In this document: in pieces, positions 1 to 64,000 of the stretch
Numbering within the stretch: the stretch's first letter is position 1
Layout: every line of letters begins with the position of its first letter
Origin: Adineta ricciae
Taxonomy: Eukaryota > Rotifera > Eurotatoria > Adinetida > Adinetidae
Direction of reading: 5' to 3'
DNA: 64,000 nt
NCBI GenBank assembly: GCA_905250025.1
Contig: CAJNOJ010000290.1
Location: 61,385 to 125,384 of the forward strand
Notes under the pieces: model-generated
What the model saw: the letters and a program-made list of their open reading frames with translations, nothing else
Databases searched by the model: none
What the model was told of the DNA's origin: nothing
Position numbers and translations under genes: made by a program

Positions 1-560
1 AAAGTAATAGCAATCTGACGTGTGTTTTTCATCATGCGTTTTGCGATTATTCGATATGGTTGCATCACGAATTTATCGTCTAGTTTGATTCCGTCTGAGC
101 CTGAGAAAATTAGAAACAAAGTGTAGTGAACAAAAACTAGGTATGTTATTCGAGCATTACTTAAATATGATCGGTTTCCTTGTCCCAATCCATCAGAGCG
201 GAGCATAAGTACAGAGAGGTATGCATGATTGCCAGGAATATCACAACCCATGAGAGCTGACGCAGTAAATACAGCCAGGCCAGTGTCAATGAGAACTGAA
301 TACAGACGTAGATCGATATTTTGAAGAAAACGAGCTCTTGGCTTGATTGCAAATGAGCATTTTCCTCGTCTGAAATCGCCAAATGTCATGTTGACAATGG
401 AAATATTTCGTACATCACGAGTGTACAGTGTAGTGTCGGAATAAATCGTTCTCCAACCTCTCGGTGTCTCTGTTGAACACTAAACAAAGCAAAAAACGAG
501 AATAAATTCTAATGTCGGTTAATACTATAAGTTCGTATACATTCCATTCGGCGTCGCCAT
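1..560 (-). CDS. Pentapeptide-repeat / Gal-binding-like membrane protein, 3' part (copy 1, partial)
   Basis: This is the C-terminal part of the same gene that is complete at 6573-8122; bases 1-560 align with 6652-7212. Exon 2 runs from 479 off the window edge. The intron is 480-540 (starts GTATAC, ends TTTAG), and a few codons of exon 1 (the NGDAEWN-type motif) lie at 541-560. The reading frame of the visible exon is open. It stops at the single N at 561, after which the sequence is unrelated, so the rest of exon 1 is missing here. Block Z starts at 19750 with the 5' part of an equivalent gene, and the two pieces probably belong together with roughly 600 bases missing. It differs from the complete copy by scattered substitutions. 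Confidence 0.7.
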
Positions 561-561
561 N
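561..561. other. Single N marking a contig junction (X/Y)
   Basis: One ambiguous base at which homology to 6652-7212 stops abruptly in the middle of a coding exon. The sequence to the right is unrelated to any pentapeptide gene. It is read as a collapsed assembly gap rather than a polymorphic base. Confidence 0.7.
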
Positions 562-1190
562 AAAGATAAAGTGAAGTGTATATTTAATGCTTGAGAAAAT
601 TGTTTATCATGCCTAAACATTTATTTCCATAAAAGTAAAAGAGTACGAAGATGTAAATGTATATTATATGACTCTATCAAGCTAAATGAAGAGTTTTACA
701 AAGAATATTACATTTTTTAATGAATATTATAATAGAAGTCAAGCTTCAATATTGTCATGATTTGCAAAACAGTACATTATTTTATAGTTTAGCCCTTTCA
801 GGACTGACTTTTTCTGTTAGAAATCTCTTCTTTTTGTAAGTTTATTAAACTTACCCCAAAATCTCTACATGAAATGTTTATGGTATTCGTAGAAACAGTT
901 TTTCTCATCTGCTACACAAAAGGCTAGCTTGCAATTAGAACATTCGATGGTTGATCTGATTTGTATTTTGTTTGTGCTACAGTAAGCACATCTTCAGGTT
1001 CCCTTGACTGGTAAATGCATTCCAATGTTCAACTGGCGAGTGAATTGCGACGTTGCTGTTGAAACTACAGACTTATTTCAGTCTAATCTAGTTGATTGTA
1101 GCAGATATATGAATTGGCTAAAGATGTATTGAAGAAGAAAAAGAAAACACGAAGCCAGTTCCTTTTTAACTTTCGATCAAAGTTGTAGGA
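562..1190. other. Non-coding stretch
   Basis: AT-rich sequence with no open frame of note and no homology to other parts of the window that I can see. It lies at the start of block Y, downstream of the decayed gene at 1200-2024. Confidence 0.5.
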
Positions 1191-1199
1191 GGATATTCT

Positions 1200-2024
1200 C
1201 TGGTTGAATCTATAAACGACTGTATCGAAAAGAAACACAATAATAAATATCATCAGGCAAATCAGCGTTCAGTATTTCCGCCAGATCAATAAATTGTACC
1301 ATAGACGCATCCTGATTAGTTGTAAAAGAGGAAGATACTACATCAATGTTTCCACGTGTAACATTCCATCCGACTGCTCCTTATTGAGCATCACCGTTGA
1401 CAACATATATTTTTTCTCGAGCATATATCCCGTTCGGATAATTCGTATTGTACATGATTAACGCTTGAGCGATCTGATCGCCAGTTATTGATGAACGAAA
1501 AAGAGTTGTTCCACGCAGCGTTGTATATTACGAACAGATGCTCGAGTGAAATCTGTGTTTTGTAGCTGTAAAACGGAGACAACGAATGGTCCTGAGCCAC
1601 GTCGCAAAATTCTTAAACCGTGCAAGTATTGTATGGCGCGTTTCTTTCTCTGGAAAACAGCTGCAATCAATCCACGTATGATTCCATAGTGAAGCTTTGA
1701 TATCGATTGAGACGAGGCTTTTAGAAGAACATCGGCAATATTCATGACAAACTCAGTGAAAGTAGTTTCGTTACCCACTTCGAATGCTCGTTGTCGAGCG
1801 ATATCCAAATCGTTTTCTCGATTGGCTTGATAGATATGCGTTGTATTCTCCATGGAAATAACAGTTAAAGCACTTATAATTATTGGTATGAAAGTCACAA
1901 ACACCACTTGTAAAATATCTTTGAGAGTGACATTTTGACATCCGCACTGCCGTATTCGCGTTGCTAATTTCTCTTCAATAGTTTCAGACGAATGATCAGT
2001 AGCACTTGTCATCGCAAATATCAA
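1200..2024 (-). pseudogene. Pentapeptide / Gal-binding-like membrane protein relic
   Basis: An open frame from 2024 gives a cytosolic N terminus, one membrane segment (VVFVTFIPIIISALTVI), a helical region and the start of a pentapeptide-like run (NTDFTRASV). Near 1520-1530 the frame must shift by one base to keep going as LRGTTLFRSSITGDQ. It then reaches VNGDAQ followed by an in-frame TAA at about 1383-1385, and resumes as GAVGWNVTRGNIDVV. That is the same NGDAE-type start of a C-terminal beta-sandwich-like domain as in the intact gene at 6573-8122. The frame ends early, at about 1222. One frameshift, one stop and a shortened C terminus mark it as a pseudogene. A sequencing error could explain one of these faults but probably not all. 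Confidence 0.6.
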
Positions 2025-2643
2025 AAACTAATCGAGTATTGATGCAGAAGCAACAATTTAGGTATATATGTATTATGATGTAAACATACACAAACGCGCA
2101 CACTTCCTTTTTCTCTATTTGGCCTCTCAATCTATAGATGCGAAATCGCCTGTCGCATTAATTTTGTGCTTATTTCAATATTTGACGGCCGCTGTACAAA
2201 ATCTCCACCGCGTAGCATGAAGTTTATCGTACGCTTCCCCAATAGGCTATAATCCAGTTTCGATCTGGGAAAAGTTCTATATAAACTGAACTTTCGACAA
2301 CACAGGATTAATTTGTTCGCGATCTGCTTTCTGATCTCATTAAAATTCTTTGACTGCGTGGACTATGTATTCCATAATCAATGGCACCCATCCGTTCGAT
2401 GACTATCTACTGTATGAAACAATGGTTTAGTTCAGATTGCTCGTATGCTTCATCAGTCCAGTTTGTCGAAGTAGTAAAAGATATTCATGTAGCTTAAGAT
2501 AATGTTTCACATGAATTCATGATCCATCTTATACTGACAAAAGTCAGTACTGCGAACTATTACCTTGTTCGCTAAGATCGAAAAACAAAAATGATCGATT
2601 CAGTATTCTAAATCAGTGTCAAAGGAGTTAATAGTGGTTTTTA
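2025..2643. other. Intergenic region
   Basis: No coding signal. It separates the 5' end of the decayed pentapeptide-like gene from the 3' end of the ART-TPR gene, so it should hold the promoter of the first and the polyadenylation site of the second. No clear site was identified. Confidence 0.4.
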
Positions 2644-4798
2644 CTAACATTCAGCTTCGTGATACAAATGATTCAAGCGTTCAACAAGATCGATGGACTG
2701 TTGCCGCTGTGGATGATTTTGTGGCAGTTTTAACTCTCGAATATGTAGCGATTTGTGCGCGTATTCGAGAGCCATTGAATAGTTATTTTCTTCAGCGTAC
2801 AATTCACTCAATTCGTAACATGTTCGAGCGACATATGGATGATCATTAGCTTGTGAAGACTCGCGCACTTTTATCGATTCTTGGAAATAATGAATCGCTT
2901 CTTTTCGATTGTTCAACGAACGTTGCGCAAGTCCCATAATATGCAATGTCTGTGCATGAGCTGATGACTTTTCCGGCATTGTATTTTCCACAAATAGTAA
3001 AGTACTCTTCAGTAAATTCGATGTAAGTTCATATTGACCAAGCTGCCAATATACATTTGCAAGTCTGTTCAAATGAAAGCCAAATTCATAGTGGTTTTTG
3101 GGTAGGATACCTTGGTAGATAAGCATCGCTTGTTCATATAAGCGTTTTGCTCGTAGAGAATCTCCGGTTTCACAGAAGACACTTCCTAAACAAGATAACA
3201 TGCGACCATAAACCATACCTGCGTCTGGTAATAGACGACGTTGTAACAGAAGAGCAGCGCGAAGATATGTTATAGCTTGTTCATGTTTCCCCATTGCACG
3301 ATAAACGCGACCGAGACAGTAATAGATGTCTGGTCGATCTTCATCATTCCATGACGTCGAACGCAATAGACGATGGAAATAGTTCAACGCTCCATGATAG
3401 TTGCTCGATATTTCAGATGTAAAATGTCCAAACAGAATCGCTGGCTTGGTTTCGACGAAACGACTTTGAACATGTTGCCTATACTCTTGCATAAGTTTAG
3501 CCGCTTCAGAAGAGGACGTCATTCGAATATTCCAAACTCGTTGCATCTCATCGTAACGAATATCACCAATAACAAAAGTAGTACCCAAATTGAAAAGCAT
3601 CTCATTCTCGTCCGGCACAGCACTTTCATTGGACACATCAGCAACCACAATATCTGGCGAGTTGTGCAAATCAATATCGATTTTAAACAAAACATATTGA
3701 TATCGGTCATGACGACCACGACTCGGCGATGTGTCCACGTTCGAAATTATACCAATAAAGTTCTGCGCAGTTGATAAATGTTTTGATGACGAGAAAAAAC
3801 TGTTCGTTGCCACTAATGATCCAACTTCCAGTTTCTCGACTTCATCTCGTCGGAGTTTTGATCCTCGATAGACAGAAAGTGGCTGTGTACAGTCGACTTT
3901 TGTCAGAGCTTTTTCTTCCAGACGTGTGCATAAGTCAATAATGAAGAAGCGAAATTTGTATAACACCAGATTATCTTCTGTACGTAGAGCTCGGTTGATT
4001 ATACGATACAGAAAGCATGATTTTGTATACCAATAAATGGCATTTGTTGCAGTATACGTACGTCTAAATTCATCAATCGTTTTCAAATCATGTTTACTGA
4101 GATAACAGCAGGCTCGGCATTCAATCAACATATCTCGTTTTGCATCCTGTGAGCTATATGGCATGGCACTCAGAATAACTAGGAGAGAAAATGTATAGTA
4201 CGAGATCTTTTCGTAGAAACAAAGACTAACCTCTGTATGTTTGACTCCATATGTACGGACCGAGTTCATCTCGAAGATTTCTCAATGCCTTTTCAGATTG
4301 ATTAACAAACGTAAATAAATCATCATCAGATTCGTTCACTTCGCTAATCAGCTGTTGCAATCGAGCTCCTAACGACTCGCAATCGCGAAATACTCCAGCA
4401 ATTATATTGACTTCATCTCGTGTGTAGACTGAAAGATCAGTGTCGGTGCTAGCATTTTGCTCATTCATTCGGGATATAATGAAAATATGTTGTATTTGTT
4501 TATATTGACATAGTTCAGCGATTTGAGTAGGACTGATCAAGCCAATGCTGCCATTGAAAACGATAACTATGTATTCATGTCGCTGTGCCCGTTTCAGATA
4601 TTTAATGCATTTCGAGTTGTTTGTACAGTGGAAAATATAACAATTATCAAGAGCACGTATGCAATTATTTATCTTGTCGCTTTCGTTTGATTCTAAATTA
4701 GATCCGTTATACAAAATAATTGTAAAACCAGTACGTAATGACGATGGGCGACGAGAGAAGCGATCGCTGCGATTTGATTTCCGATTAAGTTGAGACAT
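2644..4798 (-). CDS. NAD:arginine ADP-ribosyltransferase fused to tetratricopeptide repeats
   Basis: Two exons, 4798-4231 and 4178-2644, with a 52-base intron (GTTAGT...CTCCTAG) spliced in phase 1, give about 700 residues. Residues 1-190 resemble the N-terminal sensor-like domain seen on many bdelloid TPR proteins. Residues about 195-435 are an ADP-ribosyltransferase of the R-S-E class: R294 in VYRGSKL, a serine-rich STS-like strand (NSFFSSSK, near 316-321) and the ExE pair E380/E382 in DENEMLF. All three catalytic elements are present, so activity is expected: transfer of ADP-ribose from NAD to arginine on target proteins. Residues from about 445 to the end are TPR/kinesin-light-chain-like repeats for partner binding (ALNYFHRLL, HEQAITYLRAAL, RAKRLYEQAMLIY, KEAIHYFQESIKV, MALEYAHKSLHIR). 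No signal peptide is seen, so a cytosolic protein is likely. The fusion is well known from rotifers; the target is unknown. Confidence 0.88.
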
Positions 4799-5840
4799 CG
4801 TGTGTTTTCATAGTGATTTTCTACGGTCTGTAGAATCACATCACAGTTGTTTGGAAGCAATTAAATGATTGATGCGACTGAATGTCAGATAGCGATATGT
4901 TGCATTTGATTTGATTACACACTTCTACAACAAATTCAAGGAGAACAAAGTGATTTCTTGATTTCTGGTGACTTCTCTCGATTTCCAATAATTTCTTACG
5001 ATTCGCAATGGTTTATAGTGATATGTAAGATATCCAGTTGATTTCTCGTCTAGAAATCACCTTTCCCCCCCTTGATATTAATGCAACTCGGTACTACTGA
5101 ATTGTAACTTACACTTATATGATATTTTAAACATACATTTAAATTGATTTCGACTACTTGATTTTGCGCACATTGATATACTTCCAGACAGAATTCACAA
5201 ATATTTTTCAAGAAGCCAGCATATAACGCTTAAGTACTACACAAAGTGCACATTATGCATATTTGAATATAATTTTGTTACCGTTCTCCTCTTCTCTCTT
5301 TCCTAGAAGATGAAATCGAGGGGAAACACGTAATCGTATGATATCATGCTATTAAATTCGCCCACAACTAATAGAATGACGATAATTGCGTCATGTGATG
5401 TGAAGTAAGATTCCAGGCCTAACATATAAACTGCTGACGACAACGAAGCTCAAGTTTTGAAATTCGTTAAGCTCTAAAGCCCATCAACTGACTGGACTTT
5501 TTCTTAGTAGCTACTACGTAGCTTAGTGCATACAGAGATGCAACCTTTCATATACTCATATTCTAAACGTGAGACATGATAATTTTCATTTAGCTTTTTT
5601 TTAATGTAGAAGAATTCTCCAAATGAAAAAACTCCTCTCAATGATGCTTCAAATATTTCTAATGGAACAGATTTGTATAAATGTAGACTTAATTCAGAGT
5701 GCAATTAGTATCAACATGCTGCTGAAAACTTGAAGTATCACCGGGCTTCAAAGAATCCACCATCTATTTTCATACTGGCTCAAGCAATTGAGTAATATAT
5801 GAAATACGCAACAAAAGCGCAAAGATCAGCTCAAGAATGT
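4799..5840. other. Intergenic region
   Basis: About 1 kb of AT-rich sequence with no convincing gene. A 66-codon frame at 5504-5704 on the minus strand has no recognisable features. The first part should include the ART-TPR promoter. Confidence 0.4.
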
Positions 5841-6424
5841 TCAGAAAAGGTCAAACGCATTCATTAAAAAAGATATCGTAAAACCCGGTAGGTTCGTGTA
5901 CATAGATTGCATCATCAAGACCATCATTGTTAAAATCACCAATACTAATTCAACCATGTCTGTTAGTAATCCTACTTGAAAATTTTCATGGCCATCTCCT
6001 ACTAATACTATTATGTTTCTAGATGTTTGTTCAAAGCCAATGCATATGAAAACTATCGTTATTGAGATCTGCGACAAACACTCTATAATTTGGTTCGTCT
6101 TCTATGTCAATCTTCTTAGTTCTACCTAAAGTTCCATTACCGTAACTAAACATTACGATAACATAGTTTCTGTCACTATAAGAAATTACAACATCTGTCT
6201 GATTGCCCATATTGGAATCGCCCATAGCGAAGGCTTGTGGCATATGACGACCACCACTGAAGAGAAGTCAATCGTTTCTGAAATGTTCCATTCCCATATC
6301 CAAGAAAAATTACATAGGATACCTTCGGACAGGATTCGACATTTTCCTGAGCCGATTCGTTCCAGTGTAGGTTCCAGTCATGAAAATTTTTCACTCCACC
6401 CACACCTATTGCATTGTTACACAA
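5841..6424 (-). pseudogene. FG-GAP/VCBS repeat protein relic
   Basis: Three overlapping minus-strand frames carry pieces of FG-GAP-type beta-propeller repeats. They include FSYGNGTLGRTKKIDIEDEP, VFVADLNNDSF and, in another frame, IGDFNNDGLDDAIYVHEPTG with the calcium-loop pattern DxNxDGxxD. At least two frameshifts and in-frame stops separate the pieces, and both ends are missing. The family is common in bdelloids as large extracellular propeller proteins. At 6303-6372 the frame runs into a short dispersed repeat also found near 17500-17580, which suggests the 5' part was replaced by that repeat. Confidence 0.65.
6303..6372 (-). repeat. Short dispersed repeat, inverted copy
   Basis: About 70 bases that match, on the opposite strand, the sequence around 17500-17580 and 22190-22265 (core GGATACCTTCGGRCAGGATT). 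The match is imperfect. It sits at the 5' boundary of the FG-GAP relic. Confidence 0.55.
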
Positions 6425-6572
6425 CCTAATCGATTAAGTAACATACATATGTCTACAAAGTATGGAAAAACGTCCTTGAGATATTTCAAAAAAAAAGATA
6501 ATGAATAAGTCAAGAGTGATTGTTATTGAGTGAACGACAGTGCACCATAGATAATGTAAATGATTGAAATGT

Positions 6573-8122
6573 TCAGATTGTTTGTCGAACGCCGAGTGTC
6601 ATATTGTCAAAATAACACCAACTACCTGGTGAAGGCAATGTTTCAACACCAAAAGTAATAGCAACCTGACGTGTGTTTTTCATCATTCGGTTTGCGGTTA
6701 TTCGATATGGTTGCATGACGAATTTATCGTCTAGTTTGATTCCGTGTGAGCCTGAGAAAATCAGAAACAAAGTGTAGTGAATAAAAACTAGGTATGTTAT
6801 TCGAGCATTACTTAAATATAATCGGATCCCTTGTGCCAATCCATCGGAGCTGAGCATAAGTACAGATAGGTATGCATGATTGCCAGGAATATCACAACCC
6901 ATGAGAGCTGACGCAGTAAATACTGCCAGGCCACTGTCAATGAGAAGTGAATACAGACGTAGATCGATATATTGAAGAAACCGAGCTCTTGGCTTGATTG
7001 CAAATGAGCATTTTCCTCGTCTGAAATCGCCAAATGTCATGTTGACAATGGAAATATTTCGTACATCACGAGTGTACAGTGTAGTGTTGGAATAAATCGT
7101 TCTCCAAGCTCTCGGTGTCTCTGTTAAACACTAAACAAAGCAAAAAACGAGAATAAATTCTAATGTCGGTTAATTACTATAAGTTCGTATACATTCCATT
7201 CGGCGTCGCCATTCCGAATGAGACTTTTATTCGCATTAATTGGTCCAAAAGTGCCATTAGGCAAACGTGCATGATCGAATCGATGTGGTACTGTGGTGAT
7301 TCGTTGTCCTTGAAATTGTGCTTTGGTGAAACGGGCTTCGAATAGATCAGTATTTATAAATATATTTCCTTGAACGACTTCTGCATCGAGAAAATTTGCA
7401 CCAACGAGATGTGCTCCAGTAAAGTTCGCCTGTATGATTTCGCTTCCTTTAAAATTCGTATAGTTCAAGACAGCTTCAGCGAAGGAAGCCGAATTTAACT
7501 TCGATCGAATGAATTGTGTGTTGTTCATAGTCGATCGATCGAAAGTAGCATTAGTCAGATGACAATCGACAAACATTGCATTCGACAAGAAGACATCGGG
7601 TAGGTAAAGATTGTCCAATCTGTGTGGTCCAATTAAGCGAACATTGCTCAAATCAGCTCCACGCAAGTCAAGATAAAAATCACGGATAAGACCACTTTCA
7701 TATAAAAAGAGGAGAACATATTTTTTCCGTTCAGCATCGAGAATTCGCAGAGCAGTTAGTGTTTTTGTTCGGATGTATAGCAGAGAGGTTTTGTCGATAG
7801 CTGCACGCATAGTCGACTTTTGTGCGAGATAGTTGGACACATCATTAATGTACGTATCAAAGGATGTTTGTTGTTGAGAATCGAGTTGATGCCAACGTTC
7901 TTGCTCTTGCTGTTGTTTCGACAGTTCTTGTTGTTGCAAGGTAAAAACTATTGTAAAGATCCCTAATATACATGGAACCAACGCTGATACAACTAGTTTA
8001 CACCAACTTGATGGTCTCTGCCGTTTCATTCTCTCGGAATTATTGATCTGATTGGCTGATAACTGTGGCGATGATTTCCTCTGTCGTAATAATATCTGTC
8101 CCATTTCTACCTGACTACTCAT
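6573..8122 (-). CDS. Pentapeptide-repeat membrane protein with C-terminal Gal-binding-like domain (complete copy)
   Basis: Exon 1 is 8122-7193 and exon 2 is 7130-6573. The 62-base intron 7131-7192 starts GTATAC and ends TTTAG and is spliced in phase 0, giving 495 residues. Reading on without splicing gives only a short tail (VYELIVINRH), whereas splicing keeps the NGDAEWN motif joined to a long domain. Layout: basic N terminus, one membrane segment near residues 43-63 (VVSALVPCILGIFTIVFTL), a Q/E-rich coiled coil (LSKQQQEQERW), a helical stretch, then pentapeptide repeats from about 150 to 290 (A(D/N)LxxA pattern, as in ANFTGAHLVGANFL). After the intron comes a beta-rich domain (RAWRTIYSNTTLYTRDV onward) resembling C-terminal lectin-like domains. 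Function is unknown; the repeat helix probably lies on the outer face of the membrane. Partial copies are at 1-560 and 19750-20061. Confidence 0.78.
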
Positions 8123-8800
8123 AAAAGTGCATCAGAAACCTGCCTGAAAAGTATTCAAATTGATCGTGCCCGTGGAATCATGTTTCATCAAATGTGACAA
8201 ATTGTTAAAAAACTACATGTCTTCGGACGCACGTTTAGTGTTGACATATTGACAAGCACGATTAATCCGGAAAAAATATGGCTCGTTTAGTTGATTTGTT
8301 CTCGAATTGTCTGAAGAGATAGCAGAATGTAAGTGTTGTTCCATATTTCAAAATGGAAAGCACGAAATGGACAAAATCACATGATGCATTCTGATTCGAT
8401 AGAATAAACAACAGTTTTTTTTGCATAAAATAGTTGAGGTAGTAATGTGACATAGACATGGTTATTTCACTCGAATCGAATAATATTAAAAGTTAATCCT
8501 TATTCCTATCAAACGTTCGTGGAAATTTCCTCTCATTTCAATGAAAACATTCATATACGACGATATAACATAACATGTAAGAACATGCATGGATATTTCT
8601 CTTGTGAGATGAAATCTCTGAGTTAGAATTATATATTATCATCCATGTGTGAGTTAAAAAAATACCACATTTTTAAGCGTGTACTACGGACAATATACAC
8701 AATAATGTGTAGTCTATTAGAATCACATTTACAACATAGACTTCTACATTAATATCGACATTGAATAAAGATGGAATGATGAGTGAGGGGATAAGTTCTT
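8123..8800. other. Intergenic region conserved between haplotypes
   Basis: No coding signal. It aligns nearly end to end with about 20062-20752, between the same two genes in block Z, with small indels. It should contain the promoter of the pentapeptide gene. Confidence 0.55.
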
Positions 8801-9295
8801 TTATTTTGGTCTGTTTCGTGCAGCTTTGATTTGTTCGGGTGTTTTATACTTTCGCTTGCGTGCAGTTTCGATCATTTTTTCGAAAGGTGTCCAGTCATAA
8901 TCGTTTGTGGATGCGACTGCGATAAGGGTATCATATTTATCGAAATATAGAGATTTTAGATTGTATTCTGCTTGAGTACGCTTGATATTGACATGTTGTT
9001 TACCGATGAAGAGAGCAATACCATTTTTCGGGAATGTGAAGCGTTTTGCATTTTCGGGCAAACCATCATTAGGAGGGAGACGCTGACGTGGATACGCTGT
9101 GATGACCACACCGTTTTTGCTCACTACCTTCTCTACGTATGCATTTATGTGGCTTCGAGATTGCAAGAGTTCTGCAACAGGAATTTTCCGTTCTTGTGCT
9201 CGTTGTACGGCGTGATGACTTAATCGAGGTACGTCAAGAGAGAAGTCACCATAGAAGTCAATCGACAGTAGTCGTTTTTTACCCAATTTAGCCAT
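8801..9295 (-). CDS. HAxxRxxER-motif protein, copy 1 (unknown function)
   Basis: Intact single-exon gene of 164 residues starting at ATG 9295. I do not recognise a characterised family. A conserved core reads LSHHAVQRAQERKIPVAEL, then a beta-hairpin-like part (NGVVITAYPRQR). The HAxxRxxER motif followed by short strands loosely recalls the bacterial DUF4258 fold, a weak resemblance only. The C-terminal third is basic (ETARKRKYKTPEQIKAARN), which could suit nucleic-acid binding. There is no signal peptide or membrane segment. Two further copies exist: 20753-21247, the haplotype counterpart, and 13314-13814, a paralog. A short motif about 120-140 bases upstream of the start is shared by all three. 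Substitutions between copies leave the frame open and mostly conserve the protein, suggesting it is under selection. Confidence 0.75.
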   Translation of the reverse strand: MAKLGKKRLLSIDFYGDFSLDVPRLSHHAVQRAQERKIPVAELLQSRSHINAYVEKVVSKNGVVITAYPRQRLPPNDGLPENAKRFTFPKNGIALFIGKQHVNIKRTQAEYNLKSLYFDKYDTLIAVASTNDYDWTPFEKMIETARKRKYKTPEQIKAARNRPK

Positions 9296-9786
9296 GCGTC
9301 TTTGCTAGCTATGTATCGATATATAACGAGCAATCTATAGAAAAACCCAATGCATTTACCCAAGTCTGAATTATAGGAACACTCAAAAAGGATAGCAAGA
9401 AATCTAGTGGTTAATATTTTTGTGGAAAACACGTATAGATGTCGTTATTTTATGAAGATATTAATTCAGTGAAATATAACATGCAGCTGTAATACAAATA
9501 AGAGAAGTTCCTTTCGATATTATATGGAAACTTTGATTTGAAGTGACACGTAGATAACGAAACGAAGGCGTTCTGGTCGTTGCTTAACGAAGATCGCACA
9601 AATCACGGCAAAGATTTCGATCAGTTTCAAAATCGCTCATTTTTGGCACCAACTCGAACAACGTTGATACTAGTGTTACTTTGCTGACGAAAATCATGAA
9701 GAGTTGAGTGTCTTTTTATTTACTCTTACGATCATATTTTACGCAAGTGGGGATTGGGAATAAAACCCCATGGCTATCTTCAGTAC
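9296..9786. other. Upstream region of HAxxRxxER copy 1
   Basis: Non-coding, and aligned with 21248-21740 in block Z. It contains the shared upstream motif at 9434-9454. Confidence 0.5.
9434..9454. promoter_or_regulatory. Motif shared upstream of all three HAxxRxxER genes
   Basis: TATAGATGTCG(C/T)TAT(G/T)TTATGA occurs 122-141 bases upstream of each start codon: here, at 13936-13956 and at 21388-21408. The surrounding sequence of the paralog at 13.9 kb is otherwise mostly diverged, so conservation of this block is suggestive. Its role is inferred, not shown. Confidence 0.4.
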
Positions 9787-9945
9787 CTAGATAATTTCGA
9801 CAAATTTCATTGTCAAATGTTGAAATACATTCCACAATCCGAATAAATCGAACTCGGTATTTATTCGATATGATTCATCTATCTCATTGAGGATTTCTGA
9901 AACTAAATCGTCAGACAAATTTTCGAAGTGAGAGATAGAGTAGTG
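9787..9945 (-). pseudogene. F-box domain relic
   Basis: The minus strand reads SHFENLSDDLVSEILNEID, followed by FDLFGLWNVFQHL, close to the start of bdelloid F-box proteins (FENLPDDLLLEIF...F..LN.RF). The open frame extends upstream to about 10101 without a sensible N terminus and ends at TAG 9787. The block Z counterpart (about 21740-21900) keeps the frame through this stop for a few more codons. There is no substrate-binding region. It is a fragment, notable only because Skp1-like genes lie further along both haplotypes. Confidence 0.45.
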
Positions 9946-10101
9946 AGAACAAGCCCAGTAAATGAAATAGCAGCATTTCATGAATGTGCTTTCATTTATT
10001 TGATCATAGAGAACTTTGAAACACAAAATTATACATAAGCGTAACTCAACAGGCTCAAAAAGATAAGAACCTATAATAAAATATGTGAACATGAGCAGCA
10101 A

Positions 10102-12679: not shown

Positions 12680-13313
12680 AACATAAACTATGATAAGTTT
12701 TTCCCTATGTGACACGAATTATTATTTTTTGTCAAATCGCATTGGTGACAAACCTTATTTTTCATTAAAAATACTGTATATCTATCGCTTAGCCGGCTTT
12801 TGTTTTTGCATATTTATTTCAAAAGGATAGCAAAGAATGCGCAAAACATGGCTGAGAAGATTCTTATTTTCTAGCTTAAGTAAAACAATACTTTTCTCAT
12901 CCTAGGCACTTGTGTCAGGACGAAGTGATATTTCAATGGGGGAGCACTGATTGTTTACTACTCATCTGATAGAGTTAGTAAACAGGAAGAAAAATAATAC
13001 GAGCTTTGGATTGCTCTAAAACAGATGAGTCTAAGGCATTCGCGAGTTTTCCAGAGTATATTCGTAAAGGTAATTGATAGAAAGTTCCGTCGAAGTAACT
13101 ACTGTATTACGTTTAGAATTCGTCGAATCATAGTACGCTAGAAAATGGAGAAAGAACAAAACTATGCCTACTGAGAACTGATTGAAATTTTTCGCTCGTC
13201 ATCACCAACTTCAATATCCATGGCGAAAAAAGAAAGTTAAGGGCAGCAGAGTACAATTCGTAATCGTTAGGGCAGTCATATATACGTAGAAACATAAATG
13301 CACGGTTTATAGT
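12680..13313. other. Intergenic region
   Basis: Nothing recognisable. AT-rich, without a long frame. Confidence 0.4.
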
Positions 13314-51595: not shown

Positions 51596-54500
51596 TGTCG
51601 CCGATGTTTCATCGTCCTATCACGAAACTTAATATGGTTCTCTATTGTTTTCTTAGTACAACTTACCGTCATTCTATTGTTATTTTTCGAACTGTTCTTT
51701 AAATGATTTTCTTAGTAAATAACAAAGAACGATGTTATTGACTTTTAGTAAGAGAACCTGGTAAAAACCCAGTGTAATCAAACATGTCTGAAATTATTCC
51801 AACTTGTTACCTTCGCGATATAAACTCGTGAATTCCATTGGCATATATGGAACCCAATATTGTTGATGTTAGCCGTATAGGTCAAGATAGATGTCGTATT
51901 TTTCTGTAAAGTCAAATGAATTTAGATTAGTTATAGTTGAAAATTAGAACAAATTAAATACATTTTATCCATAATTTAAGTTGAGAAATAGCTCAATTAC
52001 TAGTAAATTAAATTTATTTCAGAAGACGAAGCCCTATAAACACCAGAAATGGACTCTAGTTAATTATGAAATATCGTAATACACCATAAGAATTGTTTCT
52101 TTCGTGCAATTATTTTCAGATGCTTTTCATAAGAAAAAAAAACTCTTGTTTAATCGAAGACACATAATGTAATAAGCTATGGGTAGACACTGACATATCG
52201 ATATATGAATTTGGCAGATTCCGTCCTCAAAATCGCGTTCCTAAAAACATCTCATTGGATTGTGCTTTAAACAAAGATTGTTACAACACTTGAATGTGTT
52301 TTTTCAGTTTCTATTTCATGTTAAATATAATAATAAATGAAATTATCTATCAGCAATTCAGTTAGTGGTGTATCTACGAACTGACATGACCCGAAAAAAT
52401 GAACAGATTTTGTAATATCTACTAAAAGAACTCGTTGTTGACCAATCTTCAATAAATAAATTGTCAGTGACCGTTGAATGATTGTGGCAACTCAGCAATT
52501 GATCTGAAAATGTTGAACGAAAATCAAGTGAATAATAATAACTCATATTAACTTATAATTAAGCAAAAGATTAATCAATATTTCATTAATAAATAGACTT
52601 GAACAAATTGGATGATATGGCGGTTGAATTTCACTAAATGATCTGTATATGGAGATTTTTTTCGTGAAGAATTTTAAATTCAGATGGATTTCAAATAATA
52701 ATTATTTGACCTTTACCTTGAAAAATTGAGTAAACAACAAAAATGATTAATGATATTGCATAAATTCTTGTTGATATAATCGCCTTTTTTGATCATAATT
52801 TTCTAAGCGAATTATTTCCAATTCAAATAAATTCAATTGTTTTCGAGTTCGCTTACTCCGATGAAAAAAAAAACTTCTCATTGACTCTTTTAGCATTCAA
52901 AGAACGATTGTCTATTATAATTATATTGTGCTGAAGTATATGACAGTTAAAATCAAATTTTCAAAATAAGACAACATTTTCATAGAACTTATTCTTTTTC
53001 TATAAAATCAACGATACGAAAGAGATATAAATCGATTATGAAATTAATATTTATCATCAGTCTAGCAGGACTCGGTAGTGCCAGTGTGAAATAACTTAAC
53101 TCTTTTGGTCTAATTAAACTTGGAGAAATATATTCAGTTGAAAAAACTCAAAAGACTGATAAAACTTGTTGCATAGATTTTTATGAGAACACCGATTTTC
53201 TATTAGCTAAGTAGATTTGTTGCATAGGAAATCATACTTCTGTTTGCAGATTTACAAATAGACGTGCTATTATATTTACTACGATAAGTAGCTACGGAGG
53301 AAAATGGTACCATAGTCTCAAGTCAATGTATAAGACTATCGATGGGAGTGACTCCTTCATCTTTCTCATGATTGTTTATCGAATATAATGTGATGTGTTA
53401 CAAAATCTTTAAATTTCTTCAAGTTTTATATTTGCCTTAAATATAATTGAAGAACTCTTGATGATTAGAATCGAGAGAAATCCTAAGCAATATCACTTCT
53501 TCATCTTATAGTGGGGACGGAAATATAAATTATCTCGACTGAAAGGAGGATTCTATGAAAAGAATAGTTTGAGTGTGTATCTGTATGTTTGTGTCAGGGT
53601 CAAAAGTCAAGATTTCTGGAAAATTCTCAAACTCGAAGGTACATCGTTTGGAGGACGTTTTAAGGCTCAATGTTGATAATGGTTGGTGAGAGGTGAAAAG
53701 AGTATTACCAAACTATCACAATATGCTTGTTTGTCTGTTGAAGGTCGTGAACCAAAGATCAGCTATTTCCGGTAATCGAAATTTATATCGAATTTCCTCT
53801 GATGTCACTATGCATTATTCCTTTTTCTGATCGAAAAGGAAGACATGCTTAACGGCGTGAAGTTTATCATATTCATTCCTAGCAAACTACCGATCCATGC
53901 GAACGCAGTAATTTTCAATACAGATCATTGGATAGACAAGAAAAACAATGACAATCCTTATGCTAATTGTTAAAACTCTTAGAAGAATGGAGACCTTGCT
54001 CGAAAGGTCATTTTTAAGGATATGTATCTAACTATTTTCTGTGTCAAATCCATACGAAGATTATTGTATTTTGAGTTACTAATTCAGTCGAGGGCAAAGC
54101 GAGTCAGCTTCGACAAATGTTACTTGTATGTAAATGAATAAAAAACACCCTTACCCTCAACAATATTGAACTTTGGACAAACCTAGATAAAAGAGCAGCT
54201 TGACTTTTGTTACGGAAAATCGATAGAATAATTTCACAGTAATGTTTAGTTTTTCTCAATCTTCAGACGACGTACTTCTTACTAAGAAAAGAATCTCATT
54301 ATCTTCTAAACAACCCCTGTCGTAATTAGTAAAAATGAGTATGACTCTGTTAACGGTTGTGATATAAACATAACTTTTTAATTAGCAATACCTAAAATAA
54401 TATTTAGACCGGTACACAAATAACCTCTCATCAAAGGAGAGTTGGAAACGTGAACTGATAGGCTATGTAACTCTGCGTGCGCGTTCACATCTACTTTCAT

Positions 54501-54823
54501 GCTGCTTTTATCTTAATTATACTTAAACAACCGATCATCTCATCTCTCAAAATTTATTTTGAAAAGGTAACGCATATACATATATCAAATATGCGCTTCG
54601 TTCAATAATCTTTTCAGTTATTTTTATAAAGGTCGAAGACACTTTTTAGAACCCTTTATTCATTGATATTCTCCAGTTAATCAGATGAGAATTACTTTAG
54701 GGTACAGCTGTCTCATGAGTACCGTAGGCAACGTTAGAGAGGAAAAAAAACTTTCTGCTGAATATGAATGTCATTTTTTCCTCAAAGACAGATTTAGTTT
54801 TTCTCTAGACTTCACTTTGCACA
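51596..54823. other. Long non-coding region upstream of GPCR copy B
   Basis: To about 51980 it aligns with block Z. Bases 51985-52376 are unique to this haplotype. From 52376 it again follows Z but lacks the part matching 27590-27970. One relic piece of the repeat membrane family remains at 52358-52546 (minus). Otherwise nothing seen. Confidence 0.45.
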
Positions 54824-55858
54824 ATGAATAATACAAATATGAGCAGCTCTATTAGTAGCAGCGATGCATCTACTATCTCACTTATCAGTGTTTTAAACAG
54901 AGCAATCTCACAATTCGGTTTTGGTTTTATTTTCATCCTTGGTAATGTTGGATCAATTCTCATGTGTATCGTTTTCACCCAACCAACGTATCGCAATAGT
55001 CCGTGTGCCATGTTTTTTCTCTCGGCAAGCGTTTCTCAATTTTTCACATATAATTTCGCATTACTCACTCGTATGCTTCACTTTGGATATGCTATACTCA
55101 CTCTTAATAGCAATCTTTGGTATTGTAAACTCCGTTTTTATCTCTTTTACATTTTCGTCGCTGTTCCTCGTTATTATATCATCTTGGCATCGATTGACCG
55201 ATACTTTGCCAGTTCAAACATCGCACTTCGACGACGATGGAGTTCGCAAAAGATCGCTTTGCGACTCATTATTGCCAACGTCATCTTCTGGTCCGTAATT
55301 TATATCCAAATCATCGCGTTTTATGATATCGGAAGCGGCACATGTACGTTTCGATCAGGTGATTACGCAATATTCTTTACTATTTATATTGCATTTGACA
55401 GCGGCGCTCTTCCGATACTTCTAATGCTGATCTTCGGCTTATTAACTGTACGAAATGTTCGGCAGACCAAAGCGCGTATCAGTGCTAATGTGGGACAAAG
55501 TCCACGAATGTCAAAGAAAGATGTTCAATTGCATCGAATGTTAGCGAATCAAATTATTCTGTTCGTCATTCTAAATGTGCCCAATCCAATTTATCTCATC
55601 TACAGTTCGTTTACAATCAACATGTCAAAATCAGCACTTCAAATTGCGGCAGAATCATTTGTCAGCAATATGACGTACCTATTGATTTACTTAGGTTTTT
55701 CATTGACATTTGCGAATTTCATGGTTTCATCGGATATATTTCGCCGTGAGTTTGCTCAAATGTTACGAACGAAAATACTTCGTCAAACTCCAATAGCTCG
55801 GATACCGGAAGGTGGCACCCCAGTTAGAATGCTCCCTGTGAATGATGGAGATCATTAA
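54824..55858 (+). CDS. Rhodopsin-like G-protein-coupled receptor, copy B
   Basis: Intact 344-residue frame with the same seven segments as the gene at 30254, including the ASIDRYFAS line and FRREF tail. About twenty substitutions are spread over loops and membrane segments (for example FYDIGSGTCTF for FYEIGSGICTF, LNVPNPIYLI for LNMPNPIYLI). No indel occurs within the coding region although the flanks have many, which points to selection on both copies. Confidence 0.82.
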   Translation: MNNTNMSSSISSSDASTISLISVLNRAISQFGFGFIFILGNVGSILMCIVFTQPTYRNSPCAMFFLSASVSQFFTYNFALLTRMLHFGYAILTLNSNLWYCKLRFYLFYIFVAVPRYYIILASIDRYFASSNIALRRRWSSQKIALRLIIANVIFWSVIYIQIIAFYDIGSGTCTFRSGDYAIFFTIYIAFDSGALPILLMLIFGLLTVRNVRQTKARISANVGQSPRMSKKDVQLHRMLANQIILFVILNVPNPIYLIYSSFTINMSKSALQIAAESFVSNMTYLLIYLGFSLTFANFMVSSDIFRREFAQMLRTKILRQTPIARIPEGGTPVRMLPVNDGDH

Positions 55859-58800
55859 AATTGTGTTGGATATAAAATTTCTTTTGCTCTTGCCTTTTCT
55901 ATTTACATTTTTTACATACTCATAGATACTCGCGTGGCTTCTTTCTTATTGTTAATCGAATTTTAATCCGGGCAGTCAAGAAGTCGAGAAATTCAGAGTA
56001 CTCGTTAATAAAATAAGTATTCTGATAGTGAAATCTTTCTTAAATGCTCTCACTCTCGCATGCAAAATACGATTCTATAGGCTTTTTTATATTTTGGACA
56101 TCAAATGAAAATGGTCAGTCTTGCTGGTTGTTTGTTCAAATCACAATTATTTACAACAATTATCACCATAATTTCTTAAATAAATTTGCATATGATCGAA
56201 CGGTCTCTATTGCTTAGTAAATACTGACATCCATTGACGTCGATTCTTTGTTGTTTGACTATTCTCAAAAGTCGACAAGTTACTATTCAGTGCATGTTGG
56301 ATTTGCTTGAAAATGAACTACCACCGGGAGTTTCAATTGTCATTATAAGAATAGTCATGAGAGGGCCCGGCGAGGATTATTTTTCTGAAGAGTTTAAAGA
56401 ATTTTTATAGCTTATTCTTTCACTAGACTGTGGTTGTGCCAGATTTTTTCGAATGAGACAGAACAGGAATGCTGGTTGAAAGTTTTATACGCCAGACTTC
56501 ATAAAGGAAAGGTGTTCATTACAAAATGCAAAAATCTATTACTTCCGTATACTATTTTGCCTTTCGCATTTAAAAAAAAAAGATATTATGGGCAAAGGCG
56601 TAAACATCTTTGACATAGCTAACTTAGATTTCTTGCATTTCTATTCTCTGCCTGTCACGAAATGATTGACAAAAAGAAGTATTCTATAACAAACAAATAT
56701 TTTTTGCTCCTAAAAGTGATTTCAAATACATAACATCATTCTGAATCGCGAAGAAGTTTATTTCGACAAACAGTTTGACCTATATATATATATAGTTCTT
56801 TGTCTTTCATCGACTTCATACAAAACAGATAGCAGTAATAAATGTTAACATCTATGGAAATACTCACGCAAATATAATCATTTGTTGTCGGTTTCGATAT
56901 ACAATGTTCGTGTTGAGGCACGTAAGTCGAAAATGATGTGTGGCGATTTCAGGAAATATGATTAGATAGGACACATAACTTTCCGTAAAAGAAAAAACCG
57001 TGCCAATTAGCCATTCAAAAATAGAGGAGTAGAATTCATTGAGATAATGTTCGATAACTTGTGAGGTATCTCAATACGTATGTGACAAATGTTTTGAGAT
57101 GAGTAAAAACTAGAGGCGCATAAAGGTATTGAACAGGCTAAGCTATTTAGCACTTAGATGGAGTTAGAGTCATTTTGTAACCAGAAAAATGATTAATGAT
57201 CTACGATAGAAGATTACTTTGTGTTAAACATGTTTGGATGATTATTTCAAGGTTGCGCTTTTTCACATGGAAACGACTATAAATAGGAATGTAGCACGAC
57301 TTCATCGATATTATCAAGTGAAAAAGTTTTAGTGGTTGATGAACATGATATAGTAATACTGTACTCGATACTACTGAATTGTATAGAGAGATCGCAACCA
57401 AATGACATCTATGTTAAAATCCAACAGACAAAAGTGGTATAACATTATTCATTCATGATACATGCTATTTTCGATGCATCAATATAAAGAAATAAATGAC
57501 ACCTACACTGTATATCTCTTAGCAGTACCTTTGAATCATATAATGAGTATATGATGACAGTTTGCAAAGAAAGATATTTGAACATGGTCAACATCCCCTT
57601 CACTCTGAGGAACCTCATGCGATGTACATTTTCCTTATTTGATTTGATCATTGAAATATTGCAATATACGGTCCATACATTGGTGCTTATATTCTCTCTT
57701 GTTCACTTCCTAATTACGTTTTCGTGCGTTTGATTTCTAAGGATTGAAAGGAAAAGATTCCTCATTTTATATATTCGAATATGATCGTTTGTTTATTTTC
57801 AATCAATTACAAGTGACATTGAAATCGAGTGAGAATGTTTGAATGACTTATTCATCTGTTATTTTTATGCATTTCATTCGTCCTCTTCTTGCAAATGAGA
57901 CGATGTTGAAGATTTCTTTTCCATTTGATTAAAGAAAAACATCACCACAGTCTGTCTATTCACAGATTGTCGCCATCTACGTTATTTGATATATGCACCA
58001 CTCTTATACTTTATAATGATATAGACTGAACTCGTTACTTAAACAGTGTACTATTTGAGCTGAATACAAATATGTATCGATAGAAATATGTAACCAATTG
58101 GACGACGTTCGTTTTTTCTTTTCGTTCTTTGTTCATTAAAGCGACTAGTAAGATTGTGATTCTTTACTCATACGAATATACTGTATGACTTGCAAGTTAC
58201 CGTCAACGACACATGACTTCGATAGAATCTCTGAAAATTAACAATGGTAACCACTTTCCGGTCAAGGTTAGAGTCTAAGCGATAATACTGACATCGTCAC
58301 ACAACTAACAAGCACACAAGACATCGGATTGTTAAACAAGTCTTTTATCTCCTGTTCGCTTACCTACTTCTCTCTCTCTTTTTTTTTTCTTTCCTCTTCG
58401 CATTCATTAAACACTCACATATTGGACGACGCGTTAAGAATTCTCTGTAGAGAAAAGAAAAAGAAGACACGAGAAGCCCGACGTTTTTCTTGAGAAAAAC
58501 GTTGTAATCACTGTATATGATGATAATCTAATTTGAAAAATTGTCACGAACACACTTTCTCTCCAAATGTCCTTGTGTCGATGAAACAGTTGTGTTTGTG
58601 TACTTTGAAAAGAGAACAACGAGAGTCAAAATTTACATTTTCAAAGAATGATCACGAGCAATTTCACCCGTTGCAACGGTGCCGATGATACGCTGATCAA
58701 TAATTCGAATGGCTTCATGCATTCTGCATCTGAATATTCCATAAAAGGAATATAAAATCTTATTCATCGTTAAATATATGTTTGTTGTCTGAATCTAGTA

Positions 58801-59146
58801 AATAGTTGTTCTATTTGTGGCAGTAATCGAATGTACTATTTGCGACCGTCAACGTAAGACTCGTGTAGTTCTTTTTTTGCTTCCTGTGCAATCATGCAAA
58901 CAAAGAAAAAAAATATAGAGAGAAGTTCGTCTGCTTCTTTTTTCTCTGCCTAGAAAAAAGAGAAAAAGAACGTTGCGGGTTTTTTCTATTATGAAAGCAA
59001 AAATTTCGAAGCTCAAAGTGGAATAAACATATTTTACTTTTACGTTAAGAACGATCACATTACTTGGAGCAATCCTCTAACGAATCGTTCTTTTTCTTGG
59101 TTTTTTTTTTCATTGTGTAAACTTTATTTTAGCATATTGAACGACA
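55859..59146. other. Long non-coding region
   Basis: Counterpart of 31289-34993, shorter through several deletions. No preserved frame. Pyrimidine runs at about 58372-58395. Confidence 0.45.
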
Positions 59147-59969
59147 ATGAGCACAGGAGCTCGCTATATCATCCGCAATGGTCCACCAGCAAGACACAAT
59201 TACGAAGTCAATGATATAGAACCTGAAGAATTACGGGTCTCATCGTTACGCGCACGACCCTATGATGAAGACTATCCACGTCATGAACCAAGATATAGCC
59301 AAAAACAATTAACTCCTCCAGCGTGCGTACCCGAATTGAGAGATTTTTCTTAAGTCTTGTTCTAATGTTTTTAGTAAATCTCGTACTTGTTGTTCAACAC
59401 CGTGTGTACTCGGACTTCTTCTTGGTTTGGCGATCGGTTTAGCCGTTGCTGCGGCAGTTGCTATTCCACTGGGTCTTGTTAAACGGCCAACTCCTCCGTT
59501 CGGTAAATATCAAATAACTATTATTAAAACATTCTATCTCTTTGCCAATTATGTTTTAGTTCGAGGTGATATTTCTTCTACACCAAATTGGGTGGGAACC
59601 TACCAAGTCGATAGTTCATGTGATTCAAGTACATGTTGTTGTTTTACGAATTATATCTACTTAACAACAACCAGCGCCAGTTTATTACAATTAAACGGAA
59701 GTCTCTCTGGTCGGTGTGTTGGTTCTTCAAATATCGTTTCTTATGCTATGACAATGCCAACTAATTTTGCACTCGGATTTACATGGTACGGACAGACGCT
59801 CCGTGTAATTCTCAGTCAAGATAGTTCTTACCTAGCAATGGTGGACAATAGTATTGGATATTGCAGTGGCTCGGCATTACGAACATCGTATAGTGCGAGT
59901 CGAATTAATCATGTCAATTCAGGTTTAATGATGCTCATGCTTTTTATTATTATTGGAATAATTATATGA
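59147..59969 (+). CDS. Small membrane protein with Cys-rich ectodomain, copy B
   Basis: Exons 59147-59322, 59375-59502 and 59560-59969, each exactly as long as in copy A. The second exon begins T-AAA rather than G-AAA, which still encodes Ala-Lys across the junction; the first donor is GTGCGT instead of GTGAGT. The proline/charge-rich N terminus, the AG-rich membrane segment and the SSCDSSTCCCF line are all kept. There is one cysteine-region change (CCSTPC for CCSKPC). Unknown family. Confidence 0.75.
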
Positions 59970-60968
59970 TCACGTGAAACAAAACTTTGATTTATTTTTC
60001 TCTTAGATGATCATCGTGTTCGTTATGTTTACTTAATATTTCTTCTTCTAGAAATCTCTGTGTCAATGTGATGATATTGAAGTTTATTTTTTTTTGTAAA
60101 ATAGGCGATAAGTTATAATGATGTTTTATTTTCTATACGTAACACCGAGACATTTTCCTTACCAATGTGAGTTTTATACTAAAATATTTAACGTAAATAA
60201 AAATTTTTCGATAGATCGTAATGCCAAAATTTATTCATATTTAACCAACATGCGACGTCAAGAATGCAATATGTAAATCAAACATACAATGATGATTATT
60301 TTTTATTCGATCGTCTACACTCATGAGAAAAAAAAGAATAAATTATTCGACGAGAACATTGGTCTTTGTATTTATTCACACACGGAGAATATTATTTTAC
60401 CTATCTGGAAAGATCTAAGAATGTAAATTTACGTTGTCCGCGCTGAGAAGGTTAAGATCGATGATGTTATCATTTATGCATTTCATTGACGCGCATATGA
60501 CTACTACTTTTAGAAAGAGAATATAATAAGCGTTAAATAATGTCGTGCACAATGTCGGCCTTTTCTCCTTTATTCTGTTCTCTCTCTCTCCTTGTTCAAA
60601 TCAGATGTACGTCTAGATCGATATGGAAGAAAGAATTAAATGGTGTTTTCATTCAATGGCGGTAATGGCCACTAGAAAATCGCTGTTGGAACGTTCAAGG
60701 TGCTAATAGTATACAATAGTGGCGCGCTTTGATTTTAGTGTGTTTTTTTTACTGATGTACTGTTGGGTTCATGCGCTGTGTAGACGAAAATCCGGGTTTG
60801 ATTCAGGTTTTTCTTTTTCCGGGCCCATATGGATGAAGAACAAATTTTCGTACCACAGGCGTAGGTACCAAGTCATCTAGGGATGACATTCGATGAAAGG
60901 AACTCATTTTTACCAAATAGTAGATGCCAATAACGTTCTAAATCTTTCTAAACAGATACTGTTGATAA
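59970..60968. other. Intergenic region
   Basis: Counterpart of 35817-36934; no gene supported. Confidence 0.4.
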
Positions 60969-61570
60969 CTATCGAATCGGCGGCTGGATATTTCCGAGAC
61001 GACCTGCAGGAGTGAATACTATCCAAAAGCTAACATTGTTTTTCATGGTACTTTCCAGACGACCGAATTCAGCAAAACCAATCATTCCACCTTGTGAATG
61101 ACCGACATAGCCGATCTGTGTTCGCTTCGTCGCATTTAAAACAAAGTAAATCATTGATGGTAGATCAAGATGAGCCATTTCATCATAATTGGAATCCCAG
61201 AATTCTTCATCGTCATCTGGGTTATATTTCACATGAGCACGTGAGTAACAATTTCAACGCATGCTGCCGATCCAGACATCATAACCGGCAGCAGCCAATA
61301 TAAAACTAAGGTTTTGACCGGGAAAAATAATTACCCAAGTTGCTCCCAAATTGAGTAGACCGTGTTGCGGAAAAACAGGCGGACCTACTGTGAAAGCAGT
61401 CGACGCGTTTCGGCCACGTGGGAATCGATATACACCAAGAATATAACCATCTGGAATTATCACTTTGTATTCTTTCCATGGATATCCTTTGCTTTCAGTC
61501 AATTGCGTGATGATACGAGAAGAATGAAGATCAGAAGTCCTGAAATTGATTTGTCCATCTAAAATCTACC
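60969..61570 (-). pseudogene. Acid-lipase-like relic, copy B
   Basis: The minus strand reads from about 61560: SSRIITQLTESKGYPWKEYK, VIIPDGYILGVYRFPRGRN, GPPVFPQHGLLNLGATWVI and AAAGYDVWIGSMR. An in-frame TGA follows where lipases have glycine, then CYSRAHVKYNPDDDEEFWD, YDEMAHLDLPSMIYFVL and the nucleophile elbow IGYVGHSQGGMIGF. The frame ends at TAA-type stop 60969. There is no signal peptide and the C-terminal half, with the Asp and His of the catalytic triad, is missing. It belongs to the gastric/lysosomal acid lipase family. It has decayed differently from copy A, which lacks GHSQGG but has an arginine codon where this copy has the stop. Confidence 0.68.
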
Positions 61571-61723
61571 GAATCTTATCACTTTTTTTTATTGTTCTCA
61601 CAAATAGCGCATACCAATCTGAATCTTTTTATTTTATAGAATACTCATAGATAACAAACGACGCCGTCATTAGCTTTCACTTCTAGGTGACTAAGATAAA
61701 AGCTTTTATTGAAGAAAAATTTC

Positions 61724-63003
61724 TTAATATGTTTTTCGTTTAAAGGACGGAATATTATCTAAGTCTTTCGCTTTATTTCCTTGATAGACCAATGGTGGAT
61801 CGAGCCAAAATGATTGAAGCGTTGGAGACGCTGGTATGATATTATTCAGGTAGAAATCCGGTGTCCATAGCTCGTTTTTGTTTATATCAATTTGTTCAAG
61901 AACAGCTCTAGCTGAACAGCTGGTAAATAGATACGCATGAGCACACCGTGTCGGATGACCTTTGTGTGTTGACAACATTGGTTGCCTTCCATCAAATCGA
62001 GAATCGGACATATTCAAACAACTCCCAATGAAGAAAATTGGATTTTGATCTACCCATTCATTGCTAGTATTTGATAGCGAAGAAGTCGCACAGGCACCGT
62101 CGATCTTCAGAGCACCAGTTCGAATAGCAGTATAGACAAAACGATTGAACTTTTCTTTGAAAAAAGGAACAAAAATCGCATCATCCTCTAAATATAAAGC
62201 TAATGGTAAATTTCTATTCGCTGTTGCTACCCAGGCATCGAAATTTTTCATTATAAGTGAACAGTATCGACTATGCCCTTCTAGAATACACAACAAAGAT
62301 CAAGTTAAACACTTATCAATGAGAGTGAATACATACTTGCAGGTTTATCGACTAAATTCAAATTTTCGAAAACTTCTTTTTTATTTTTGTTGGAATTACA
62401 CTCCGTGTGATTCCATTTCCATTGCCATTGAATAGATTCAATAGGAATATTTTGTTGCCGGAATGTGTTCTTTATATGTGCGTGTCTGTCAGATAAACTT
62501 TGATCAGTCATAACGTATATCTGCTTGACGTAGGCTAAACCCGACAATGTGGAAGGTGATTTCACCACGTTGAATGTCGTTTTATCTCGTTTATTAGGGA
62601 GCCAGACATTTGCTGAATATTCATCGGGTAGGGGAAATGAAAGCCATTCTTGTCTTGGTTTATGCTCAAAAAATTCTTGGATCGAATAATAATCGTATGC
62701 CGTACCGTTCATATGTGTGATTGCATCGGTAGGATAGTTGACGAGAATGAAACGGAGTAGATCTTTGTGAACAAACTGTAACTGTTTCGTGGATGGAGTA
62801 GCAAAACAAGTCATGTAAGGTAATCGTAACCATTTGTTCTCAAAAAGTGGCCCTAGAAAAGTATGACATTTTCTTCTAAAGGAGTTTTTGGCTTTCTTAA
62901 GTTACATATTTTTATCATTGAGAAGAAAACTAAAAGCCAGCATGAGATGAATAGAAAATACAGAGTAATTGTGCGTGTTGAACATGTTCTTACGATCGAC
63001 ATT
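61724..63003 (-). pseudogene. Glycosyltransferase family 25-like gene, copy B, frameshifted near the N terminus
   Basis: Exon 2 (62280-61724) and most of exon 1 (from 62336 upward) match copy A, with the same splice junctions and the LALYLEDDAIFV strand. The start at 63003 and the signal anchor are also present. Between them, at about 62898-62903, five extra bases relative to copy A (near the AAGTTACAT run) shift the frame, which then ends at a TAG about 20 codons later. Translation could restart at ATG 62814 (MTCFATPSTK), giving an anchorless, probably mislocalised protein. Recently disabled, or rescued by an internal start or a small intron that I cannot see. Confidence 0.65.
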
Positions 63004-63568
63004 TAAGTTTTTATTCAATACTTTCGATCGTAACACTTTCTTGCGTTCTATATAAACATAAAAAAAGAAAAATCTCTCTCTCTCTTTATCGTCTTCAATC
63101 GGGTGTGTTCAAATCTATTCTGACTATAAATAAATACGTAAGAAATAAGAAAGCTACGTGTTATAACTCAATTAAACATATAATATTCGTCTTCTAAGGA
63201 GATGAAAAAAAAGATTGCTCATGCGCTCTCTATATCATCTACGAGAAGACATAGGGTTCGAAAAAGTTAAGTCATATAGAAATCAATAACTCTCAAGTTC
63301 AGTTCTGTGTAATTATCGAGAAAAAAATTACTCGATCGCTTTTTTTTTCCTTCTTCCTATAAATGACATTGCCCAAAGTATTATACTGCATTTTAAGAAA
63401 GCAATTCTTTTCCTAACTAAACATAACGCAAATAATGGCATAGTCATATTTTTCTCTTCTTGTTCTTTTGATGCCGGAGGTAAAGTAATCTTAAGTGGTA
63501 CATGTAAAACCCAAATGGAAAAGCGGCTCATAAATTTATCATTCAAGATGTCTTTATTGGATACATCG
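63004..63568. other. Intergenic region
   Basis: Counterpart of 38801-39372, with a CT run near 63070-63088. No gene. Confidence 0.4.
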
Positions 63569-63879
63569 TCAAAATTTATATAATTGTACTTCAGAATATT
63601 GAACACTGTTCGAGACACTTCGCTTGCCAGAGACAAGAAAGCGATAGCTTTTGTATTTGATTGCATTGTCAAAATGTTGAATGGGACCACATTTGCTTCG
63701 TCCAGGATCTTTCTCAAGTCCGCTAGCACCTTTGTACAGCAGAGTCCAACTTGTGCCGCGAATCAATGGTATCCCTGAGACATGACTCCCTTCTAACGAT
63801 ACAACAGTTGGATCTCTTTCTGCAGAGTCGTTGGCTGTACAGATTCGTAGTCCGTTGACTATTGTTGGACCATGTTGTA
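63569..63879 (-). pseudogene. Discoidin-like membrane protein, copy B, truncated
   Basis: The end of the discoidin-like domain is intact in frame (GPTIVNGLRICTA, ERDPTVVSLEGS, closing strands to the YKF end) and matches 39373-39683. At 63879 homology to copy A stops within the domain, at VVQHGP, and foreign sequence begins. The first half of the domain, the stalk and the anchor are not in the window. The foreign part might be an insertion with the remainder beyond 64000. Confidence 0.6.
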
Positions 63880-64000
63880 CCCATGTGAAATTTTTTTGAA
63901 TGTAAACGCGTTTAAAACGCGTTTCGGATGCGTTTCAGACGCATGGTACAAACGTACCAAACGCGACGGAAATGAAACATTTGATGCATCTAGACGCAGC
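63880..64000. repeat. Foreign sequence at a gene breakpoint, palindromic
   Basis: 121 bases, richer in CG dinucleotides than the rest of the window, with repeated ACGCGTTT/AAACGCGT words (AAACGCGTTTAAAACGCGTTT-like palindrome near 63906-63925) and GACGCATGG/ATGCGTTTC variants. It looks like the edge of a repeat or mobile element. It runs off the window, so its type cannot be told. Confidence 0.5.

Follow-up and report, generated by a model that had tools for sequence, protein, structure and literature searches.

Pieces of two homologous copies of one region appear to be interleaved in a scaffold of the bdelloid rotifer Adineta ricciae

The last 64,000 bases (the window) of contig CAJNOJ010000290.1 of Adineta ricciae (C290; 125,384 bases, GC 34.9%) contain a pentapeptide-repeat gene, two arms of a hAT-like transposon and three single Ns, which divide the window into blocks X, Y, Z and W (Table 1). 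In C290 as a whole, nine N runs were identified, eight of a single base and one of 58, which gives ten pieces, S0 to S9. Judging from the assembled sequence, C290 almost certainly consists of two homologous copies of one region, the pieces of which were interleaved by scaffolding, and the apparent duplication in the window is not real. A preliminary description of the window had placed the three Ns at the same positions, which was confirmed. It had also taken the tandem-looking duplication for a product of scaffolding, and this is supported by unmerged exact overlaps, by the position of X out of order and by the low divergence between the copies.

Table 1. Coordinates of the features of the window (single Ns are read as false junctions; haplotypes as assigned in the text)
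Feature	Position	Strand	Remarks
Single N	561		false junction X to Y
Single N	19749		false junction Y to Z
Single N	49078		false junction Z to W
Block X	1..560		final 560 bases of S6 (contig 54854-61944), haplotype B; S6 overlaps S5 and S7
Block Y	562..19748		piece S7, haplotype A
Block Z	19750..49077		piece S8, haplotype B
Block W	49079..64000		piece S9, haplotype A; reaches the contig end
First 180 bases of Y	562..741		identical to last 180 of S5 (contig 54673-54852), which precedes X
Pentapeptide-repeat reading frame (stop to stop)	7163..8131	-	Pfam PF00805, 5.3e-15; complete in Y
7.3-kb stretch of Y, not in Z	10017..17288		Z has 12 bases (21961-21972) instead
Left target-site duplication	19348..19355	+	TCCACCAC, 8 bases
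Left arm of hAT-like element	19356..19748	+	begins CAGGGTTGCCATT; cut by N; related arm at other loci
Empty target site	24043..24050	+	in Z, single copy of TCCACCAC
Related element	~48.4 kb (48440..48740)	+	within Z
Right arm of hAT-like element	49079..49583	+	ends AATGGCAACTCTG; first ~120 bases high-copy repeat
Right target-site duplication	49584..49591	+	TCCACCAC, matches left copy

The pentapeptide-repeat frame joins X to Z. Block X could be aligned to Y 6652-7212 with 95.7% identity and stops at the equivalent of Y 7212, and Z begins at the equivalent of Y 7811, which gives a colinear X-Z join with a gap of 598 bases (Y 7213-7810); this part of the frame is lacking in X-Z. X and Z had been described as the rear and the front of one pentapeptide gene with about 600 bases missing, and the description holds with the exact figure. 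When the 598 bases were sought on other contigs by genome search, they matched Y alone. The search with window 1-7810 returned only short or weak matches, among which the window itself was missing, and it was not counted as evidence of absence. The genome searched comprised 130.46 Mb in 1,033 contigs (the smallest looked at, C1033, has 10,113 bases, and shorter ones were seemingly left out), and the searches scored the best candidates, 40 of 452 in one search and 40 of 49 in another.

hAT transposons make an 8-base target duplication and have short terminal inverted repeats, and their transposase carries a BED finger and a hAT dimerisation domain. The end of Y and the start of W fall inside one hAT-like element, the halves of which stand 29.3 kb apart as given. 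The target site TCCACCAC was found twice with the element and once without it, and the inverted ends of 13 bases, CAGGGTTGCCATT and CAGAGTTGCCATT, match at 12 of 13 positions. When the flanks in Y and W were joined, 370 of 400 bases were identical to Z, with no gap in the alignment. Y had been said to end in the left arm, and W to begin in the right arm, of one transposon, and the shared target duplication and the empty site bear this out. The element resembles the hAT superfamily in its 8-base duplication and inverted ends; it differs in that no transposase was found on the two available arms, the middle of the element being missing. An 81-aa frame (49199-49441) gave hits to zf-C2H2_12 (0.0018) and zf-BED (0.033), both under the Pfam cut-off.

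Of eight other places examined for related arms, three have part of the left arm and then part of the right, and four matched the left arm alone; the eighth (L041) matched the right arm and 31 bases of the left. The start of W (49079-49198) is high-copy: among the best candidates, 42 of the 44 listed matches to the beginning of W lie in this repeat with 97-100% identity, and 40 of these 42 share one start base. This repeat probably broke the contig between Y and W. An ordinary transposon insertion, in one haplotype only, underlies the apparent duplication.

Exact overlaps between piece ends were also observed. S5 and Y share 180 identical bases, end against start, and S6, which ends in X, stands between them; this join argues independently that X does not stand in its proper order. 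Another unmerged exact overlap, of 173 bases, was found at C290 21402. Both terminate at Ns on either side, and they were the only two overlaps of 15 to 599 bases when every piece end was compared with every piece start (the second piece in both orientations).

All nine junctions of C290 jump backward onto sequence already covered, by steps of 173 bases to ~25 kb, and the homologous or identical sequence that is covered again is reached at the start or within the first 1.4 kb of the next piece (9/9). Six of the N runs lie upstream of the window (C290:1-61384), each with a backward homologous overlap. The copies abut at N runs at every junction, eight of them single Ns, as in a heterotype false duplication; none of the nine boundaries is free of N, and a true tandem duplication would require at least one. 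For a true tandem segmental duplication, or for homologues linked on one chromosome, the Ns would be ordinary gaps. The copies do stand in the same orientation on one scaffold, linked homologues on a single scaffold of A. vaga were at one time described as genuine (cited in section 9 of PMC5916493), and two copies of a proteasome gene occur 72 kb from each other on another contig, C4, with 95.9% identity, which may be the same artefact. Such a duplication would demand breaks exactly at the Ns in nine cases of nine, one transposon split into halves 29.3 kb apart that have both retained one and the same target-site duplication, and an identical 180-base end both before and after S6; in addition, no further allele-like copy was found among the best candidates of four genome searches. 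A true tandem duplication was rejected on the N runs at all nine boundaries, the split transposon and the repeated end, and together with true linkage of the homologues it is left with hardly any probability. It is just as implausible that the homologues are linked as alternating tandem blocks, which could not segregate in normal meiosis, with the Ns marking boundaries that are hard to assemble.

If the pieces are instead those of two homologous copies, they could be resolved into two paths. In the given order the haplotypes of S0 to S9 read A B B A B A B A B A, with a switch at eight of the nine junctions; these labels presuppose that the locus exists in two copies and that the phase does not change within any piece. 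Haplotype A would be S0-S3-S5-S7(Y)-S9(W), with pieces summing to 63,113 bases, and haplotype B S1-S2-S4-S6(X)-S8(Z), summing to 62,205 bases, almost the same length. All eight joins within haplotypes are colinear on the other haplotype, and each is bridged by one piece of the opposite haplotype. Seven of them have gaps of 123, 1551, 774, 2676 and 598 bases or overlaps of 180 and 173 bases, and the eighth, Y-W, is the transposon; the automatic figure for the gap from Y to W (-410) was disregarded, as it had caught the related element in Z. The orders X-Z and Y-W, which had been proposed as the true ones, are thus each supported as a single colinear path, the former with its gap in the pentapeptide gene and the latter with one transposon and an empty site opposite.

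The ten pieces are sorted by their left ends on the shared map (10/10), the place of S1 being extrapolated, with its first 1.3 kb unaligned. The given order is one of 252 possible interleavings when the order of each haplotype is fixed, which is arithmetic and not a test. Contigs of two homologous chromosome copies would have been assembled apart, broken in places and then pooled for ordering, and laid end to end by their left ends on the shared map. Where a contig begins before its predecessor has ended, the estimated gap would be negative and a token N would be written, as may have happened at eight of the nine junctions. In scaffolders such as SSPACE, a single N stands for a negative gap. 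We infer that the software represented negative gaps by N and that repeats caused the contig breaks. The passages of the literature that were examined did not say that a negative gap is denoted by one N, and section 17 (methods) of PMC7943196 does not state the scaffolding procedure of ARIC003. The DNA of ARIC003 was amplified from the whole genome (PMC7943196), which is relevant if this assembly is ARIC003, and chimeric molecules from the amplification might have joined the blocks before assembly. This is extremely improbable, for chimeras would account neither for the Ns at nine joins nor for the left-to-right sorting of ten pieces, nor for joins confined to homologous contigs of one locus.

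Six pairs of reading frames differ between the haplotypes by 2.4-4.8% at the DNA level, which agrees with the 4.55% published as the median for homologues of A. ricciae (PMC5916493), and the two copies are presumably alleles in the animal. Outside C290, the four genome searches gave no match of more than 350 bases over 81% identity among the best candidates, and no further allele was found elsewhere in the assembly; shorter matches reached 88%, or 98% for a 196-base piece of transposon. Bdelloids are degenerate tetraploids (PMC5916493, PMC7943196), and the interleaving could be right with the copies being recently diverged homoeologues from sister subgenomes. Each of the four best-scoring groups of proteasome matches, grouped by score, has three or four copies, which is what a genome of this ploidy should show. 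Homoeologues nevertheless have very little likelihood here: the divergence of the six frames lies in the range of homologues, the divergence published for ohnologues is much greater (mean KS 1.267; PMC5916493), and the longer matches elsewhere in the genome stay at or below 81% among the best candidates.

Several observations weigh against the interleaving of two homologous copies. S6 differs from the overlap of S5 and S7 at merely 2 of 180 bases, and exact runs between the haplotypes reach 221 bases, with 3 of 3,192 runs of at least 180, so that the identity of the 180-base overlap is not proof by itself; its position at both ends would be the stronger point. The junction at contig 37693-37750, with a backward jump of 5.7 kb, is a run of 58 Ns and not a single N. 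The stretch 10017-17288 of Y has no counterpart in Z. As the searches scored only the best candidates, and contigs under ~10 kb seemingly lay outside them, another allele might have escaped notice. Elsewhere in the assembly, three of six N runs had no shared sequence in the short flanks that were examined. In addition, the support comes entirely from the assembled sequence.

Two further observations concern block Y. Within the stretch 10017-17288, positions 13342-13767 are a further copy of 8829-9254, with 95.8% identity, and the reading frame at 14293-15087 has a VIT domain. Another frame (2647-4281, minus strand) joins an ADP-ribosyltransferase-like domain (Pfam ART, 1.7e-06) to tetratricopeptide repeats.

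The artefact is a known one, ordinary in kind and useful to users of this scaffold. It is a heterotype false duplication (PMC9516828, Ko et al. 2022), in which divergent alleles are assembled apart and kept as if duplicated; in C290 it takes the form of numerous pieces that alternate along a single scaffold. Haplotype contigs that are duplicated, whether contained or overlapping, are a known false duplication as well (PMC2864568, Kelley and Salzberg 2010), which was detected there with mate pairs and here from assembled sequence. Nowell et al. 2018 (PMC5916493) warned that gaps in the scaffolds of Adineta coincide with many of the breaks in collinearity, and suspected scaffolding errors; their section 9 describes linked homologous blocks twice, in tandem each time, in the earlier A. 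ricciae assembly. C290 belongs to a different build and was resolved piece by piece through exact overlaps and the empty site of a transposon. A later survey of parthenogenetic genomes gives the same warning for palindromes (PMC7953838).

Outside C290, a sample of 48 loci (112,811 bases, ~106,200 distinct) was available, biased in that the longer loci were mostly brought in by repeat or gene-family matches. It contains six N runs, five of one base and one of two, and the same six are found in a subset of 33 loci. In three of the six, the two flanks share sequence (182 bases at 98.9%, 130 exact, 206 at 98.5%). These are L043 (C437) near 49507, L045 (C280) near 14914 and L029 (C267) near 64927, and it is possible that they are unmerged overlaps. 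Meanwhile, the proteasome gene occurs twice on the same strand of C4, at 1115301-1116800 (L063) and 1187501-1189000 (L064), its identity extending over 1.48 kb; the pair may reflect a second case of interleaving or be a true duplication.

With flank-sharing N runs in other contigs, the scaffolding fault may extend beyond C290. Readings of copy number and synteny from the window had been called misleading from the outset, and rightly, as neither its gene counts nor its gene order is to be trusted. In bdelloids, copy number, tandem duplication and linked homologues bear on life without ordinary sex, and a scaffold like C290 would distort work on these questions with spurious tandem duplications and spurious linkage.
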